DNA of 64,000 nucleotides, from contig JAGCLD010000004.1 of NCBI GenBank assembly GCA_017647145.1, positions 1 to 64,000 of the forward strand. Reading direction: 5' to 3'. Below the pieces are notes generated by a model, which saw nothing but the letters and a program-made list of their open reading frames with translations, was not told where the DNA came from and did no database searches. This document shows positions 3,375 to 58,689 of the stretch, piece after piece. Numbering within the stretch: position 1 is the stretch's first letter; each line of letters starts with the position of its first letter. The DNA is from Paludibacteraceae bacterium (GTDB lineage: Bacteria > Bacteroidota > Bacteroidia > Bacteroidales > Paludibacteraceae). The position numbers and the translations under genes are program-made.

Positions 3375-3512
3375 TCCCAACAAATAATTCTCATTCTATG
3401 GGTATTCTCCCCATAAAGAGTGTGCCCTCGATTCATCTATGGGCAAGAACTATTTTTGGGGGTGCTGTTAATAGAGGGAGTTTGAAAAATATCATTTAAG
3501 TAAGCTTCATCC
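3375..3512. other. Spacer after the PAP2 gene, no gene seen
   Basis: AT-rich stretch with no convincing ORF, RNA gene or strong hairpin. A frame of 60 codons overlaps it, but it begins inside the PAP2 gene and has no family resemblance. The 11-bp repeat begins directly after it. Confidence 0.5.
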
Positions 3513-3567
3513 TATCTAGTTCCTATCTAGTTCCTATCTGTTTGGTAGCTGTTTGGTAGCATATTGC
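3513..3567 (+). repeat. 11-bp periodic repeat, locus 1
   Basis: Five consecutive 11-mers: TATCTAGTTCC twice, TATCTGTTTGG, TAGCTGTTTGG and TAGCATATTGC. The first two are exact copies and the rest drift while keeping the 11-bp register. The tract lies about 30 bp before the leader RNA promoter at 3596. The same period and consensus recur at 19134, 32281 (inverted), 45812 (inverted) and 58602. Confidence 0.75.
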
Positions 3568-29596: not shown

Positions 29597-30937
29597 ATGA
29601 AACGTTTAGTTGTATTAGGAGCAGGCGAGAGTGGTAGCGGTGCAGCTGTGCTTGCCAAGATGAAAGGTTATGATGTCTTTGTTTCTGACAAGGGCAGCAT
29701 TAAAGACGAATATAAGGCCTTGCTTAATCAGCACAACATTGAGTGGGAAGAATTACAACACAGCGAAGATAAAATCATGAATGCTGATGAAGTAGTAAAG
29801 AGTCCGGGCATTCCCGACACTGCGCCACTCATCCAACACTTAAAAACAAAAGGAACTCCAATCATTTCGGAAATTGAATTTGCCGCACGCTACACGAATG
29901 CCAAGATGATTTGCATCACAGGAAGTAATGGCAAAACCACCACCACCACCTTAGTGTTTGAAATACTCAAAAACGCAGGTCTGAACGTATCATTAGCCGG
30001 CAATATTGGAAGAAGCCTCGCATTGCAAGTGGCGTGTGAAGAACATGACTATTATGTGATAGAGTTGAGTAGTTTTCAGTTAGACAACATGTATGAGTTT
30101 AAAGCAGATATTGCCATCTTACTCAACATTACACCCGACCACCTGGATAGATACAACTATGAGTTCCAAAATTATGTGAATGCAAAGTTTCGCATCACGC
30201 AAAACCAAACCCCCAATGATGCCTTTATTTACTGGGCTGGCGACCCTGTAATCAGCGACCAACTAAAGAAACTGCGTCTCAAGGCAACATTATATCCATT
30301 TGGCGACAAAAACGACGGACATAACATCGCCTACTTAGATAATGAATACCTGATTTTTAGCCAACCCAACGAATATCAACCATTGGCCATCCCAACAGAG
30401 GAATTAGCACTCAAAGGAAAGCATAATTCCTACAACAGCATGGCTGCCGGAATTGCCGCACGCATTCTTCACATCAAGAAAGAAGATATTAGAGACTCGC
30501 TGAATAGTTTTGCTGGCGTAGAACACCGTCTCGAATATGTCGCAACCGTTCGGAATGTACGCTTCGTGAATGACTCAAAAGCCACTAACGTTAATTCATG
30601 CTGGTATGCATTAGAAAGCATGCGAACCCCCACTGTGCTCATAGTCGGTGGTACTGACAAAGGAAATGACTACAGCGAGATTGACGAATTAGTGAAAGAA
30701 AAAGTACACACCATCGTATATTTAGGACTCGACAACGACAAATTACACCAACATTTCGACAGCTTAGTCCCCCACGTGATAGACACACACGACATAGAAA
30801 CCGCCGTTAAAGAAGCATATAACGCAGCCAAGGAAGGAGACACCGTATTATTGTCACCATGCTGCGCAAGCTTCGACCTGTTTAAGAACTACGAAGACAG
30901 AGGTCGTCAATTCAAACAATGCGTGAAGGCTCTATGA
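29597..30937 (+). CDS. murD: UDP-N-acetylmuramoylalanine-D-glutamate ligase
   Basis: 446 residues. N-terminal Rossmann-like domain (VLGAGESGSGAA), ATP-binding CITGSNGKTTTTTLVF (about 110-125), and Mur-ligase motifs such as LNITPDHLDRY and VNDSKATN. It adds D-Glu to UDP-MurNAc-L-Ala. It overlaps by 4 bp (ATGA) with the following thioesterase gene, which is not a cell wall gene. Confidence 0.96.
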   Translation: MKRLVVLGAGESGSGAAVLAKMKGYDVFVSDKGSIKDEYKALLNQHNIEWEELQHSEDKIMNADEVVKSPGIPDTAPLIQHLKTKGTPIISEIEFAARYTNAKMICITGSNGKTTTTTLVFEILKNAGLNVSLAGNIGRSLALQVACEEHDYYVIELSSFQLDNMYEFKADIAILLNITPDHLDRYNYEFQNYVNAKFRITQNQTPNDAFIYWAGDPVISDQLKKLRLKATLYPFGDKNDGHNIAYLDNEYLIFSQPNEYQPLAIPTEELALKGKHNSYNSMAAGIAARILHIKKEDIRDSLNSFAGVEHRLEYVATVRNVRFVNDSKATNVNSCWYALESMRTPTVLIVGGTDKGNDYSEIDELVKEKVHTIVYLGLDNDKLHQHFDSLVPHVIDTHDIETAVKEAYNAAKEGDTVLLSPCCASFDLFKNYEDRGRQFKQCVKAL

Positions 30938-31440
30938 GAAGACTGACAAACCCATGGGCAGACGTGGAAGGCTACTATTGTTTTGGGTGCGCTCCCAACA
31001 ATAGCCAAGGAGTAAAGATGGAATTTTATGAAGACGGAGATGAAATTATTTCCGTGTGGCAACCACAATCCGCATTTCAAGGCTGGCTAAACACACTTCA
31101 TGGAGGAATACATTCCGTCTTATTAGACGAAATTTGCGCATGGGTAGTATTACGTAAATTACAAACCACCGGAGTCACCAGCCGGATGGAAACACGATTC
31201 AAAAAACCTGTCTCCACACAAGATAAATACGTGATACTGCGCGCACAGATAGTGTCACAAAGAAGAAACCTTGTAGAAATCAAGGCCACCCTTCAAAACT
31301 CACAAGGCGACCTGTGCTCGGAAGCCACATGTCAATACTTCACTTTCCCAAAAGAAAAAGCTGCAGAAATGTTTTTTAGAGAGTGCTTGCCCGTAGGTCA
31401 AGATGTCAGCATAGAAGAAGTTATCGAAAAGCTATCTTAG
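30934..31440 (+). CDS. PaaI-type hotdog-fold thioesterase
   Basis: 168 residues from the ATG that overlaps the murD stop; an ATG 15 bp earlier is also possible. It starts MRRLTNPWADVEGYYCFGC. The hotdog core includes FQGWLNTLHGGIHSVLLDE (about 48-66), matching the HGG..a.lDe signature of PaaI/YdiI thioesterases. It should hydrolyse acyl-CoA thioesters; the substrate is unknown. ATGA overlap suggests coupling to murD translation. It converges with a second thioesterase at 31455. Confidence 0.85.
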   Translation: MRRLTNPWADVEGYYCFGCAPNNSQGVKMEFYEDGDEIISVWQPQSAFQGWLNTLHGGIHSVLLDEICAWVVLRKLQTTGVTSRMETRFKKPVSTQDKYVILRAQIVSQRRNLVEIKATLQNSQGDLCSEATCQYFTFPKEKAAEMFFRECLPVGQDVSIEEVIEKLS

Positions 31441-31454
31441 AAAGCAGACTCCCC

Positions 31455-31877
31455 CTAGAAAGCATGTTCTTCATACTCCTCAATAGACTGACGCCATTTT
31501 TCAGAAATTGGCTTAGTGCAATTATTTTTAAAGTCAAAGCCAACCATCACCGTACGGCAAACACATTTTTCTTGCCCCGTATTCATGTCAACAATGCGCT
31601 GTTTGAGGGAGAAACTTTTGTTCCCGATTGAATCAACACGCGTTTGTACAGCTATTTCATCGGTCAGAAAAACAGGAGCTATAAAATCCACATCAATGTG
31701 TGCTACCACAATATCCACATCTTTTTGTTCTACCTTTTCCCCCTTATTAATCGTTTGAAAATAAGCTGTTTTCCCCAAGTCATAAAAAGACAAATAAACA
31801 GAATTATTAACATGCCCTAAGGCATCGGTGTCATTAAAACGAAGTTGTACCGGAATACTATGTTTGTATTTTTCCAT
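31455..31877 (-). CDS. 4HBT-type acyl-CoA thioesterase
   Basis: 140 residues from the ATG at 31877; a frame from 31934 would include the promoter. The N-terminal RFNDTDALGHVNNSVYLSFY (about 12-31) is the 4-hydroxybenzoyl-CoA thioesterase/YbgC active-site signature with catalytic Asp. The substrate is uncertain. Its promoter region is the first copy of the 83-bp repeat array (TATCTTTG at 31911-31904 on the minus strand). Confidence 0.88.
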   Translation of the reverse strand: MEKYKHSIPVQLRFNDTDALGHVNNSVYLSFYDLGKTAYFQTINKGEKVEQKDVDIVVAHIDVDFIAPVFLTDEIAVQTRVDSIGNKSFSLKQRIVDMNTGQEKCVCRTVMVGFDFKNNCTKPISEKWRQSIEEYEEHAF

Positions 31878-31904
31878 AAAAGTTGGCTTATATTTCAATA
31901 GGAC

Positions 31905-32270
31905 AAAGATAGTGCAAGGTGAGCGAAGAAGCAAAAAAAATAAACTTGTTTAATTTTTTGATAATTCCGAACCGCAGCCTATCTTATCCAAAGATAGTGC
32001 AAGGTGAGCGAAGAAGCAAAAAATAAACTTGTTTAATTTTTTGATAATTACGAACCGCAGCCTATCTTATCCAAAGATAGTGCAAGGTGAGCGAAGAAGC
32101 AAAAAATAAACTTGTTTAATTTTTTGATAATTACGAACCGCAGCCTATCTTATCCAAAGATACAAACAAATGAGCGAGAAATATCAAGCTTGCTTGAATA
32201 TTTTTCACAGCGAATGCAGCCTATCTTATCTAAAGATACCACAAGGTGAGCGAAGAAGCAAAAATAACCC
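31905..32270 (-). repeat. Tandem 83-bp promoter-bearing repeat array
   Basis: Copies start at AAAGAT 31905 (85 bp), 31990 (83 bp), 32073 (83 bp), 32156 (76 bp, divergent) and 32232 (partial). The second and third are almost identical. Read on the minus strand, copies 1-3 carry TTTTTTGC, then about 19 bp, then TATCTTTG, i.e. a -33/-7 Bacteroidota promoter; copy 5 has TATCTTTA and copy 4 keeps only the -7 box. The array points at the thioesterase gene at 31455-31877. Copy 4 contains TCAAGCTTGCTTGA, which recurs at 45542. Confidence 0.85.
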
Positions 32271-32280
32271 ACCAAACAGC

Positions 32281-32368
32281 AAGCATCCTCGCGACCACTC
32301 CGCGACCATCTCGGGACCACTAGATACAAAACAGATAGGAAGAAGAACCCAAACAGATAAGCAGACGA
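32281..32368 (-). repeat. 11-bp periodic repeat, locus 3 (inverted)
   Basis: Eight 11-mers in register on the plus strand: AAGCATCCTCG, CGACCACTCCG, CGACCATCTCG, GGACCACTAGA, TACAAAACAGA, TAGGAAGAAGA, ACCCAAACAGA, TAAGCAGACGA. It is the reverse complement of the same family at 19134. The remaining gap to rex (32369-32563) holds CAGACACCAATAAA (32387-32400), also found at 52028, and the rex -7 box. Confidence 0.7.
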
Positions 32369-32492
32369 CAACTATATGGTTTCAGTCAGACACCAATAAA
32401 TATTTTTCACCAAACTAATTTCACACCGCTATTCTATAACGAAAAATGCATTGAACCAACAAAATAATAGTATTTTATTGCAAGAAAATATG

Positions 32493-32501
32493 TAATTTTG
32501 C
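32493..32501 (+). promoter_or_regulatory. -7 box of the rex operon
   Basis: TAATTTTGC matches TAnnTTTGC. A TTG that could open a longer rex frame (32498) lies within this box, so the ATG at 32564 is the likely start. Confidence 0.6.
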
Positions 32502-32563
32502 AGTTTAATAAAACAACTAATGCAGTCAAACCATCTGCAGATAGACACGAGAAACAGCATCTT

Positions 32564-33229
32564 ATGGTCACACCGGACAAACATCACAACATACCAGAGC
32601 CAACACTACGCAGACTACCGTGGTACTTAGCCTATGCCAAACTCATCGATGGCCAAGGAGAACAACACCTGTCTTCTACACAAATCGCTCGAAACATTGC
32701 GGTTGACTCTTCAGTGGTGGCAAAAGACCTATCCTACGTCGCTATCAAAGGACGTACAAAGGTGGGCTATGTAGTTAAGGACTTGATTGCTGTCTTAGAT
32801 GACTTTCTTGGATTCACCAATACTCATCGCGCATTTTTATTTGGAGTAGGAAGTTTAGGAGGCTCACTTCTACATGATTCCGGTCTCACACAATTTGGAC
32901 TAAACATAGTAGCCGGTTTTGACGCAAAATATGAATTATCAGGAACAAGCATCAACCACACGCCCATCCATCATATTGACCGGTTCATGGAACTGCAGTC
33001 CAAGATGAACGTAGAGATTGGCGTACTGGCAGTTCCGGTTGAACACGCACAAAACGTAGCCGACCTAATGGTAAAGGGAGGAATTAAGGCCATATGGAAC
33101 TTCACGCCATTCCGCATACGCGTGCCGGAGAATATCGTTGTGCAAAACACATCTATTTATGCACATTTAGCAGTAATGTTTAACCGCCTGGCAGAACTAA
33201 GCCATAAAGATGCCACCACTAAACCATAG
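32564..33229 (+). CDS. rex: Redox-sensing transcriptional repressor Rex
   Basis: 221 residues. The N-terminal winged helix has PEPTLRRLPWYLAYAK and STQIARNIAVDSSVVAKDLSY. The NAD(H)-binding Rossmann domain begins FLFGVGSLGGSLL (about 92-104), and the C-terminal domain-swapped helix is YAHLAVMFNRLAE. Rex senses the NADH/NAD+ ratio and represses fermentative and respiratory genes. It is 12 bp before the FAH gene and in line with porU and porV, so redox state might affect expression of this unit if Rex controls itself. No obvious Rex operator was seen. Confidence 0.94.
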   Translation: MVTPDKHHNIPEPTLRRLPWYLAYAKLIDGQGEQHLSSTQIARNIAVDSSVVAKDLSYVAIKGRTKVGYVVKDLIAVLDDFLGFTNTHRAFLFGVGSLGGSLLHDSGLTQFGLNIVAGFDAKYELSGTSINHTPIHHIDRFMELQSKMNVEIGVLAVPVEHAQNVADLMVKGGIKAIWNFTPFRIRVPENIVVQNTSIYAHLAVMFNRLAELSHKDATTKP

Positions 33230-33860: not shown

Positions 33861-36800
33861 ATGCCCATCTTAACATCAAAGAAATATCAACTTTTATGGC
33901 TCTTCTGCTTGGTATTTTTGCCATTACAAGCTAAGACATTCACCAAACAGATTGAATGGACCACATGCGAGCGACTGACTGATAGCATTCGCACGCATGT
34001 GATGAGTTTTGCCGACGCACTCTATAATGAACACTCGCTCCCCATCTGTCAACACGAGTGGACAAATAGTCCAAACCGCAATGAATACACCATCCAAACT
34101 CTTTCGTCTGAAATAGTTCCACAAGAATTTATCAACAGCATTGATACGGCAACCTTAGGGACATCACCCGAATTACAACTTGAAAACAACGATGGAACAA
34201 CCATTATAAATGTAGTACCCTTCTTCAAGGAGAATGGCAAAATAAAACGACTAACTCACTATCAAATAGATGCCACTGAAGCTCGCAACACAAATAACTC
34301 TAATCTGCCACGTCATCAGTATAAAGAAAAATCCATTCTTGCATCAGGAAGTTTTGTCAAAATACGTGTTCCGAATAGCGGTATCTACAAGTTAACTTAT
34401 GAAGAACTATCTTCGTGGGGACTAAATCCTGCGCAGATTCGCATCTTTGGCTATGGGGGTGCCGTGCTAAATGAAAACTTTAACTCAGATCGTATAGATG
34501 ATTTGCCGGAAGTACCTTTCTACATCCACAAAGGCAGTGACAACACATTTGGAAAAGGCGACTACATATTGTTTCATGCACAAGGACCGGTTAGTTGGAG
34601 CTACTTGCCCAACAAATTCACCTACACCCACAGCATGAATACCTACTCCACACACGGATATTACTTCATCACATCTGATGCAAGCACAGGCAAACATCTC
34701 AATGAGGTTGCTTCCGCTGTCATCAACCCGGAGACCACACATTTAGTCAACACTTTTGACGACTATCAACTCCACGAACAAGAAGTGTTCAATGCATTAG
34801 ACCCAACAGGGTCAAATGGAGGCGGACAAGCATTCTTTGGCGAACAATTAAATAGTGGCAACACCTCCTTTAGCACAAGCTTCACATTTCCTAATATCGT
34901 GGAAGGCGCTGTGGGTAAAATAAAAACCCAATTAGCGGCTGCTTCCACCATTGCAGCGTCTCATTTCTCACTCACATTCAATGGTCAACAAGAAAAAACC
35001 ATTACGGTAAGCGCAATGCAACCCAGCATTTATGTAAAAGGAATCTTAAGCACCAACACCCACAATTTTAATCTTACACACAATAAAATCGACATAACAC
35101 TTCAAGCTGACCTACCGTCTGACGGAAAGGCTTATCTCAATTACATCGAAATGCACATACCCCGCCAACTGATTATGTCGGGAGATGCAATGTATTTTAG
35201 AACCAAAGCCAACATCGGTTCGGGTAAAGACAACTGCTATACACTTCAAAACGCCTCCCCTGATGTACACATATGGAATATCACACATCTGGATTCCATC
35301 TATCGAGTACCGGTTATATACAGCAATAACACTGTAAAATTCATAGGCTCAACAGATGAATTGCAACAATATGTTGCCGTTCGCACTTCATCAAGTCAAT
35401 TTAACACACCGGAATTTGTTGGTCATATTAATCCGCAAAACCTACACGCTCTTAAAAATATAGAATATGTCATTATATGCCCGGAGGCATTTCGCAGTGA
35501 AGCTGAACGCTTAGCCATGACACATGAAGAGCAAGATGGCCTGTCATGGATGGTAGTAAGCGACGAAGAAGTGTACAATGAATTTTCCTCCGGAACTCCT
35601 GATGCAAGTGCCTATCGTTGGTTTATGAAAATGCTTTATGACCGACATTTAGCAGGTATCTCTTCGGTTGCACCCCGATATTTATTACTCATGGGAGACG
35701 GCACTTTTGACAACCGAAAACTATTGCACAATTCAGGACCTAACACTTTATTATCCTATCAGTCGGCACTCAACATCATGGATGAAACATTTGCTTATCC
35801 AACAGATGACTATTTTGGATTTCTGGATGATACTGAGGACACAGAATTTAAAGAAACACACATGTTTGTCCGCTTGGGCATAGGCCGACTACCTGTTTCC
35901 ACTGTAGAGCAAGCACGTGATGTAGTCAACAAGTTGATTACATACATGCAAGACAATCAACAAGGAAATTGGCGCAGTCAACTTTGCTTCTTGGCAGATG
36001 ATGGCGACAGAGCTGACCACATGATTAGTGCTAACAGAATTGCTGACACAATCAGTGTGCGTCAACCCAACTATCTCATAAACAAAATTATATTAGACTC
36101 ATACTTGCAAGAAGTAACTGCTGCTGGAGAAACCTACCCCATAGCAAAAAACAAGTTTGACAATCAACTTAGAAACGGATTGTTATACCTCTGTTACATG
36201 GGACATGGAAGTCCTAACGCCATCACCAATGAAAACATGATGACCCTCGAAAGCATCAACAATATGCGCAACGAATACTATGGTGTATGGGGATTTGGAA
36301 CATGTAGTTTCTCTCATTGGGATGCCCAAACAATTTCTGCAGGCGAAGCGGCAGTCCTTAATCCACTAGGGGGCGCCATAGGAGTCTTCTCTGCTGCTCG
36401 AACCGTATACGCTGATGCCAACGAACGCCTATTGATGGAATTCAGCAAAAACTTATTCAAAAAAGAAAATGGCAAATATATTCGTATCGGAGATGTGGTG
36501 CGCCTTGCCAAAAACGCACCGAATAGAGAAGCCAACCGCATGGCATATCTCTATCTGGGTGACCCGGCATTACGCATAGCTCACCCCACCCCCTACACAG
36601 TACAAACCGACACAATCAATGCTCATCCTGCACATACCATCGACACATTAAGAGCTTTGTCTGTCAATACTATTAAAGGCAGTATTATTAATGATGAGGG
36701 CCACATAGTAAAAGATTTCAACGGCAAAACATTCGTTACCATCTTTGACAAAGAACAAAAACTCACTACCCTCAACAACCACAACGAAGAATCTGCAGCC

Positions 36801-37667
36801 TATCCATTCCATTTCAAAGATCGTATCAGTGTATTATTCAAGGGTAACGTAGATGTGACAAATGGAAAATTTGAAGTCACCTTTATGCTTCCCAAGGACA
36901 TTCAGTACAATTACGGAACTGGAAAGATTTACTATTACGCGCTCGACACTATACATCACACAGAAGGTCTCGGACATTTCGAAGATTTCTTGATAGGAGG
37001 CAGCAATCCTAATGCTCAATTTGAAGATAATGGTCCGGATGTAAACATCTACCTCAACACGCTACACTTCGTCTCGGGGGGGCAGGTAGATGAGCGCCCA
37101 CTCTTCATAGCCTACATCGATGACCCCAATGGAATCAACACTTCAGGTAGTGGTATAGGACACGACTTACAACTCACTGTTGACAACAACAATGAACAAA
37201 CATGGAACCTGAATGAGTCATTTGTTTCCACCAACGGTAGTTTCCGTTCCGGAAGCATACACTACAGAATGTCAACATTAGAGGAAGGAAAGCACAGCCT
37301 TCGCTTCCGTGCATGGGACCTACTCAACAACTCCACTTCTAAAGAACTTGAGTTTGAAGTTGTCAAAGGCTTGGCTCCGCACGTTTACCAACTCATCACT
37401 TACCCAAATCCTGCTAAGTCTGGCGATGTAATTCACTTTATCTTTGACCACGACCGTCCTTCGTCTGTATTGGAAACCACCCTCCACATATTTGATGTGA
37501 GCGGAAGAAAAATTTACACCACAACTCAGCAAGGAGGAGAACATTTTACGTTTACCCCCAACAAAGCAACAATCGGTGCAGGAATATACCTCTACCAATT
37601 CCAAATAAAGACTAACGAAAGCGAAATAACTACTCAAAAATCTAAAATAATCATAACTCAACAATAG
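33861..37667 (+). CDS. porU: T9SS signal peptidase/sortase PorU
   Basis: 1268 residues with a signal peptide over about 1-24. The large middle is a gingipain-like C25 cysteine peptidase: YLLLMGDGTFDNRK, LCYMGHGSPNA with His 782, and GFGTCSFSHW with Cys 815. The His and Cys are 33 residues apart, as in Porphyromonas gingivalis PorU. The end (about 1180-1268) is a T9SS-type C-terminal domain with YPNPAKSGD. PorU cleaves the sorting domain from cargo at the cell surface and attaches A-LPS. It is followed 61 bp later by porV. Confidence 0.96.
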   Translation: MPILTSKKYQLLWLFCLVFLPLQAKTFTKQIEWTTCERLTDSIRTHVMSFADALYNEHSLPICQHEWTNSPNRNEYTIQTLSSEIVPQEFINSIDTATLGTSPELQLENNDGTTIINVVPFFKENGKIKRLTHYQIDATEARNTNNSNLPRHQYKEKSILASGSFVKIRVPNSGIYKLTYEELSSWGLNPAQIRIFGYGGAVLNENFNSDRIDDLPEVPFYIHKGSDNTFGKGDYILFHAQGPVSWSYLPNKFTYTHSMNTYSTHGYYFITSDASTGKHLNEVASAVINPETTHLVNTFDDYQLHEQEVFNALDPTGSNGGGQAFFGEQLNSGNTSFSTSFTFPNIVEGAVGKIKTQLAAASTIAASHFSLTFNGQQEKTITVSAMQPSIYVKGILSTNTHNFNLTHNKIDITLQADLPSDGKAYLNYIEMHIPRQLIMSGDAMYFRTKANIGSGKDNCYTLQNASPDVHIWNITHLDSIYRVPVIYSNNTVKFIGSTDELQQYVAVRTSSSQFNTPEFVGHINPQNLHALKNIEYVIICPEAFRSEAERLAMTHEEQDGLSWMVVSDEEVYNEFSSGTPDASAYRWFMKMLYDRHLAGISSVAPRYLLLMGDGTFDNRKLLHNSGPNTLLSYQSALNIMDETFAYPTDDYFGFLDDTEDTEFKETHMFVRLGIGRLPVSTVEQARDVVNKLITYMQDNQQGNWRSQLCFLADDGDRADHMISANRIADTISVRQPNYLINKIILDSYLQEVTAAGETYPIAKNKFDNQLRNGLLYLCYMGHGSPNAITNENMMTLESINNMRNEYYGVWGFGTCSFSHWDAQTISAGEAAVLNPLGGAIGVFSAARTVYADANERLLMEFSKNLFKKENGKYIRIGDVVRLAKNAPNREANRMAYLYLGDPALRIAHPTPYTVQTDTINAHPAHTIDTLRALSVNTIKGSIINDEGHIVKDFNGKTFVTIFDKEQKLTTLNNHNEESAAYPFHFKDRISVLFKGNVDVTNGKFEVTFMLPKDIQYNYGTGKIYYYALDTIHHTEGLGHFEDFLIGGSNPNAQFEDNGPDVNIYLNTLHFVSGGQVDERPLFIAYIDDPNGINTSGSGIGHDLQLTVDNNNEQTWNLNESFVSTNGSFRSGSIHYRMSTLEEGKHSLRFRAWDLLNNSTSKELEFEVVKGLAPHVYQLITYPNPAKSGDVIHFIFDHDRPSSVLETTLHIFDVSGRKIYTTTQQGGEHFTFTPNKATIGAGIYLYQFQIKTNESEITTQKSKIIITQQ

Positions 37668-58601: not shown

Positions 58602-58689
58602 TATCTTGATGGTATCTAGTTCCTATCTAGTTCCTATCTGTTTTGTATCTAATTCCCATCTAGTGATTCCAGAGTTGTCCCTAGATGGA
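58602..58689 (+). repeat. 11-bp periodic repeat, locus 5
   Basis: Eight 11-mers: TATCTTGATGG, TATCTAGTTCC twice, TATCTGTTTTG, TATCTAATTCC, CATCTAGTGAT, TCCAGAGTTGT, CCCTAGATGGA. The first three of the core are the same as at locus 1 (3513), 55 kb away. Confidence 0.75.

Follow-up and report, generated by a model that had tools for sequence, protein, structure and literature searches.

The promoter-like copies that stand in tandem before a thioesterase gene in the window (the whole stretch of 64,000 nucleotides analysed here) belong to a dispersed family of palindromic repeats of the Bacteroidales, in which the 3' arm of the gene-proximal unit probably serves as the promoter of the adjoining gene; among the explanations considered, we regard this as the best. 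A unit consists of one imperfect inverted repeat of ~65-85 bp (AAGATAG...CTATCTT) that folds over its whole length. Read toward the gene, it starts with AAGATAGG and ends with CTATCTT, and units are joined into arrays by palindromic boxes (TATCTTTnnATAAGATA). With its terminal inverted repeats (AAGATAG/CTATCTT), short length, non-coding sequence and multiple copies, the unit has the features by which miniature inverted-repeat transposable elements (MITEs) are recognised.

The repeat array in the window

The thioesterase-superfamily gene (4HBT/4HBT_2; positions 31455-31877, minus strand; PF13279, E 4e-20; PF03061, E 9e-13) is preceded by three near-identical units of 83-85 bp, all on the minus strand. 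Tandem Repeats Finder reported the segment 31904-32162 with a period of 83, 3.1 copies and 98% matches, and the CAAAGATA...GCAAAAAA register is spaced by 85 and 83, confirming the three copies of 83-85 bp that a preliminary description of this DNA had listed. Its proposal that each of these copies carries a promoter directed to the gene at 31455-31877 agrees with the pattern TTTTTTGC-N19-TATCTTTG, which occurs exactly three times in the 64 kb (31904-31938, 31989-32023 and 32072-32106), always on the minus strand and aimed at the thioesterase gene; none of 100 shuffled controls reached three matches. The looser pattern TTTG-N18-21-TATCTTTG returned the same three sites and no others in the window (shuffle mean 0.14). 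With a TTG start, the open reading frame of the thioesterase gene would extend to 31934 and thus into the array, which makes the ATG at 31877 the more probable start codon.

All units of the array lie on the minus strand, and the first three are of subtype A. Unit 1 (31905-31986; model R1, 84.4 bits, and promoter match) has its predicted -33 TTTG at 31932-31935, and the gene-proximal -7 box TATCTTTG (31904-31911, minus strand) is, by its sequence, a half box that is continued on its 3' side by the leader of the gene itself. Unit 2 (31990-32069; R1, 81.8 bits), with TATCTTTG at 31989-31996, is identical to unit 3 (32073-32152; R1, 81.8 bits, and promoter match), which has TATCTTTG at 32072-32079. 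Unit 4 (32156-32228; R1, 34.2 bits) has no TTTG at the -33 spacing and is absent from the TTTG-N18-21-TATCTTTG matches. Although this copy had been called decayed, it is better read as a member of another subtype, B, given that it is 0.90 identical to a unit at locus L019 but no more than 0.72 to its neighbours in the array. The fifth, most distal copy, described in the same way, is a truncated unit composed of a box with TATCTTTA and the promoter half (~32231-32266; repeat-search copy at 32231-32265, box at 32216-32238). A pattern search of the genome placed four full boxes, GCAGCCTATCTTATnnAAAGATA, at 31974, 32057, 32140 and 32216, spanning 31974-32238. On the far side of the array lies a divergent gene (32498-33229, plus strand) from which the array promoters point away; we take it to encode a Rex-like repressor from its domain pair, PF06971 and PF02629.

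Several other features of the window were recorded. Two thioesterase-superfamily genes stand tail to tail (30919-31440 and 31455-31877), adjoining mraY and murD. A large protein of the peptidase C25 (gingipain-like) type, which carries a weak type IX secretion tail and might, we presume, be PorU, is encoded at 33861-37667, and a DUF805b RNA motif (Rfam RF02914; 46285-46320, minus strand, 38.8 bits) is a cis-regulatory candidate. A second dispersed repeat, the 11-bp minisatellite (ACTAGATAGGA)n, occurs at 3510-3542 and 58610-58664 and has 109 matches genome-wide in dozens of places (reversed control, 0); it often starts with AACAGATAGGA and ends with ACTAGATACCA. By eye, related AGATAGGA-type sequence was seen next to the array of the window (at 32322-32365) and to arrays L038, L040 and L045, and short repeats like CGGGACCAC / GCGACCATCTC adjoin the distal end of the window array (32285-32322), with similar ones in L045.

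Conservation of the hairpin

The hairpin is kept by paired changes. Folded singly, 31 of 37 units gave z < -2, with a mean of -3.6. A triplet in the outer stem switches between GGT:ACC (9 units), ACC:GGT (8) and GGC:GCC (8), so that over the 37 units 25 triplets are complementary and 1 is mismatched; 9 subtype B units are without the triplet and 2 units could not be scored. In a structure set by hand on 19 chosen non-B units, 93.5% of the cells are paired, a percentage that leans toward the structure because the latter was derived from the same 19 units. The stronger part of the evidence is therefore the triplet switches together with the covariation, which scored 0.337 versus 0.144 after shuffling (0/500 as high) and at most 0.097 when the structure was slid. 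Pairs changed on both sides numbered 12 in these units (shuffled mean 9.3); further pair types showed no excess (19 versus 18.3 shuffled; 205/500). When all 37 units were aligned with MAFFT and folded together, no consensus emerged (energy 0.0), which we attribute to the differing lengths of the subtypes.

Dispersal in the genome and across the order

A blastn comparison of the window stretch with its own 2.0-Mb draft genome gave 51 matches, and the box GCAGCCTATCTTATCCAAAGATA, searched with up to three mismatches, gave 39 (reversed-pattern control, 0). A covariance model built from 19 units matched at least 77 times, one match being the opposite strand of another; this count is a lower bound, with 150 of 1698 candidates scored. 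Given the 51 blastn and at least 77 model matches, a private tandem duplication of one promoter can be rejected. As a separate observation, the units at L036 and L028 (C16:15585 and C38:96763) are 0.99 identical despite their different loci, which points to recent dispersal between loci. Contigs C2, C9, C13, C19, C26, C34, C37, C44 and C47 begin or end within ~1 kb of an array, so that longer arrays may be absent from the draft assembly.

Within the same family, a short box (at most one mismatch) was found in 11 of 358 genomes, including all three of the genus. An exact scan of named genomes recovered at least 112 stretches; among the 80 titles listed, all are Bacteroidales groups or 'uncultured bacterium', and they include Prevotella, Bacteroides, Phocaeicola, Muribaculaceae, Barnesiella, Parabacteroides, Leyella and Segatella. 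Units were present in records of Prevotella bivia and Prevotella pallens, both of them cultured. The distribution across the order is wide but patchy, since the model matched 14 of 119 genomes of a spread sample (own genome included) and none of the other 105, with at most 39 candidates scored per genome. Five of the matching genomes, each from another family, contain at least 32-39 matches each, many of them in tandem at 75-85 bp. Carriage of the repeat by phages was rejected, as viral contigs gave no exact box match.

Position and orientation relative to genes

Scoring the orientation of each array from the unit sequence alone, and using simple ORF calls, we found that for 30 of 31 arrays in the own genome the next ORF downstream points away from the array, with its start within 100 nt in 26 of the 30. 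The upstream flank, which served as a control, gave 13:11. This set comprised 32 arrays, one of them without a downstream ORF, and drew, like the comparison of array mates below, on the 66 of 77 model matches that lay inside the fetched stretches; the sole exception, L046, is situated at a contig start. In the five genomes from other families, 66 of 77 arrays face a gene (upstream flank 34:45); these genomes and their stretches had been chosen for scoring in the order-wide sample, and 159 of 166 matches were used after exclusion of partial, cut-off and opposite-strand duplicate matches. Among the named genomes, 53 of 59 clusters face a gene (upstream flank 30:24), 16 clusters with an overlying ORF and 5 without a downstream ORF having been excluded from the original 80. 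Among the five genomes from other families, the bias is weaker in G458 (12/18).

The 100-aa N-termini of ten chosen downstream gene products were scanned for known families, and nine gave matches: pheT, cysS, lptB, ychF, rimO, gyrase/topoisomerase IV subunit A, ferritin, aspartate aminotransferase and peptidase T. Their scores are below the full-length cut-offs because the queries were short pieces, and the tenth gene, thrS by eye, gave no match from its 100-aa N-terminus. Units thus mostly appear to sit just upstream of a gene, with an end that resembles the promoter of that gene. The alternative of a dispersed promoter-bearing element, raised in the preliminary description, is strongly supported by the dispersal in the own genome, the matches in 14/119 genomes and the orientation toward genes.

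Gene-proximal and internal promoter boxes

The primary (sigma-ABfr) promoter of the Bacteroidetes comprises a -7 element, TAnnTTTG, and a TTTG near -33 (consensus as quoted in PMC7366714). The 3' arm of the unit carries TATCTTTG, and in subtype A a TTTG lies ~20 nt before it; we predict that this arm is a primary, sigma-ABfr-type promoter. At a spacing of N18-21, TTTG precedes 23/32 proximal boxes of the own genome and 30/34 of the sister genomes, only 33/68 of those in the named collection, and 27/42 internal boxes of the own genome. Subtype B units are without TTTG at the usual -33 spacing.

The final G of the -7 box is present in 29/32 proximal half boxes versus 17/42 internal boxes of the own genome (Fisher p ~9e-6), even though the three own half boxes without G, which resemble degenerate internal boxes or a chance match, were still counted. 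The corresponding numbers are 30/34 versus 4/15 in the two sister genomes, 61/68 versus 56/115 in the named collection and 86/87 versus 48/72 in the five other families; 5 long-loop boxes of the own genome and 1 of the named collection were set aside. From these counts, the predicted gene-proximal promoter is conserved in every set examined, and conservation of the internal ones is confined to some lineages. The view that decay of internal promoters is universal was rejected, because the internal G is kept in genome G384 (23/24) and in Prevotellaceae-titled records (33/49, versus 10/51 elsewhere).

Growth and turnover of arrays

Within the own genome, the nearest relative of a unit lay in the same array for only 6 of the 55 units that have array mates, and 3 of these 6 belong to the window. 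With the window array excluded, 3 of 51 units had an array mate as their closest relative, versus a mean of 1.4 after permutation, and mate identity was 0.718 versus 0.717 after permutation, which indicates that arrays in this genome were mostly built from unrelated units. The window triplet is an exception, produced by recent local duplication. Array mates in the five other genomes are more alike than permuted ones, so that tandem duplication is common there and serial acquisition is not general; the notion that arrays are always mosaic was accordingly rejected for these genomes. The signal of a two-base target duplication was weak: neighbouring boxes agreed at their nn positions in 7/16 cases versus 3.0 after shuffling (35/2000 as high), with 2 of the 7 stemming from the window duplicates.

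Units also turn over between species. Among the best 30 sister-species loci orthologous to 22 own array genes, 24 are without a unit, 4 (pheT and the topoisomerase gene, the pheT matches being weak) have one that faces the gene, and 2 (lptB) have one that faces away. At the lptB loci of the sister genomes G001 and G002 (L164 and L163), the unit faces the divergent neighbour, and the own-genome array at this place faces lptB. Both sister-species orthologs of the thioesterase gene (L179, L180) have TATCTTTG just upstream of the gene and no model match. Conversely, own orthologs of sister array genes have a unit in 0 of 7 cases.

Between the two sister species G001 and G002, 19 orthologous pairs were chosen that have an array on at least one side; two of them (proS; L192/L194 with L209), in which the array runs into a contig end, were left out. 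By model, unit number differs in 9 of the 17 informative pairs and is equal in 8; examples of difference are 3 versus 1 units (L208/L220, L191/L222) and, at pgk, a difference of exactly one unit of 84 bp. In one of the 17, L206/L251, the model matched neither side: leader and -7 box are nearly identical, the sequence upstream is unrelated, and L206 holds a repeat-like stretch that has decayed beyond recognition by the model. In addition, a gene shared by two named Prevotella, with flanks that can be aligned on both sides, is preceded in Prevotella falsenii by one unit fewer than in Prevotella pallens. Together with the 9/17 pairs, this supports, at the level of species, the earlier suggestion that neighbouring copies are gained or lost as whole units. 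The thrS leader (L047) suggests that the upstream region at this gene was exchanged rather than simply extended.

Relation to known repeats

Correia elements carry promoters in their terminal repeats and insert at TA. In the account consulted, these Correia repeat enclosed elements of Neisseria are described as MITE-like, located mostly just upstream of genes and equipped with internal, sigma-70-like promoters (PMC10969869). As far as that account goes, the likeness lies in a MITE-like repeat upstream of genes that carries a promoter, but the present repeat is set apart by description, its outer end being a Bacteroidetes -7 box, its orientation near-uniform and its units stacked in tandem. In its mode of action the Bacteroidales repeat may resemble promoter-bearing MITEs, the Correia element among them, the putative promoter function of its units resting on sequence, orientation and conservation.

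BrickBuilt, a MITE or minisatellite of Porphyromonas gingivalis, is reported from 19 loci in one strain, with promoter activity in an E. coli reporter; it consists of 23-nt units, AGAYCATARTATCCTCTCRTRTG, with a separate leader and tail, and the report cites no BLASTn matches outside P. gingivalis (PMC4596501). It is likewise an intergenic, tandemly arranged Bacteroidales repeat; judged by that report, it differs from the 65-85 bp hairpin unit described here, whose family occurs across the order. Identity of the two was rejected, as AGAYCATARTATCCTCTCRTRTG has no match in the window with up to three mismatches. PINSR of Prevotella intermedia and Prevotella nigrescens is 188 bp long, with 177 and 184 copies in two strains, is stated in its description to be without terminal inverted repeats and was detected by PCR in four close Prevotella species (PMC4755523). 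Although it, too, is a dispersed intergenic repeat of the Bacteroidales, its stated length of 188 bp and lack of terminal inverted repeats set it apart by description.

REP, BIME and REPIN sequences are short palindromic intergenic repeats that are both dispersed and clustered and are moved by RAYT transposases. They resemble the present family in the former respects, but REPs are given as 20-40 bp (PMC3733652), shorter than the units found here, and these differ further, going by that source, in having a predicted promoter in fixed orientation to genes. A Y1 transposase of the RAYT type (PF01797) was found in none of the three genomes of the genus, so that mobilisation by RAYT was rejected; elsewhere, PF01797 had one match in G319 and five in G317, which gave no box match. 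A literature search, which missed most subscription journals, returned no description of the repeat, a text search with stretches of it gave only papers unrelated by title, and PMC2267715 contains no occurrence of Bacteroides or Porphyromonas.

Discussion

In the model that we favour, a unit, presumably moved by a mobilising enzyme, comes to lie with its promoter end on a gene's -7 box, in many cases that of a housekeeping gene, and supplies the -33 region, with the gene keeping or sharing its own -7 box and leader. Further units would then accumulate upstream, joined by palindromic boxes, partly through the acquisition of unrelated units from elsewhere, which is the rule in the own genome, and partly through local tandem duplication, as in the window triplet and commonly in the five other genomes. 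The gene-proximal unit would most likely be the working promoter, from which transcription would start, and the distal units may represent spare or weaker promoters, or passengers.

To two other readings we assign a low probability each. Several copies could be active at once, with recombination tuning the number of units to set expression, as might be expected from subtype A units of the window that keep TTTG-N20-TATCTTTG exactly (3/3), from unit numbers that vary between sister species and between the two named Prevotella, and from the internal G that is retained in G384 and mostly in Prevotellaceae-titled records. However, 25/42 internal boxes of the own genome and 11/15 of the sister genomes are without the final G of TAnnTTTG, so that the copies are not kept equivalent; moreover, recent duplication accounts for the identity of the window copies, and subtype B units do not have the usual -33 element. 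It is similarly doubtful that the repeat is a selfish, MITE-like element without host function, which inserts at -7 boxes owing to their resemblance to its own ends, with strict orientation reflecting target choice or the survival of harmless insertions rather than promoter use. The full-length palindrome with matching ends, the patchy distribution (14/119 genomes), the turnover at orthologous genes and the units unrelated to their neighbours in the own genome all suit such an element. Nevertheless, the almost invariable retention of the proximal -7 box (86/87) and the fact that a unit abutting the -7 box replaces the -33 region argue for use by the host, and neither a target duplication, in the comparison of neighbouring boxes at nn, nor a transposase, sought as Y1, was identified.

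The strong hairpin with its paired changes, and the T run that follows the AT-rich stem in subtype A, could also indicate a role in RNA or as an insulator, with the repeat shielding the gene from transcription that arrives from upstream, be it as a terminator, an attenuator or a small RNA. This we consider highly improbable: the T run is not conserved in five listed units of the sister genomes, a terminator scan of 31300-32700 gave a single site, distal to the repeats, versus 1.1 expected, and an Rfam search of the array locus yielded no family at gathering score. The proximal unit, furthermore, lies upstream of the presumed start and would be outside the gene's own transcript.

Going beyond the favoured model of a dispersed repeat with a promoter in its proximal unit, one may tentatively envisage a miniature mobile hairpin that targets promoters, although we think this rather less likely than not. 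Copies would insert precisely at a -7 box, each rebuilding the box as the next landing site, and the host would keep the newest, proximal unit as its promoter. In view of the paired changes that maintain the fold, the element might move via folded single strands. If this were true, one element family would continually rewrite promoter architecture in many Bacteroidales.

The carriers in the own genome include pheT, cysS, lptB, rimO and the gene for topoisomerase subunit A, and the repeat coincides with breaks in the draft assembly. Orthologous genes that naturally differ in carrying 0, 1, 2 or 3 units would allow promoter number to be compared with expression. Given that Bacteroidales dominate among the bacteria of gut and mouth, a promoter-like repeat that occurs across the order and varies in number between close species would constitute a general route for changing gene expression.
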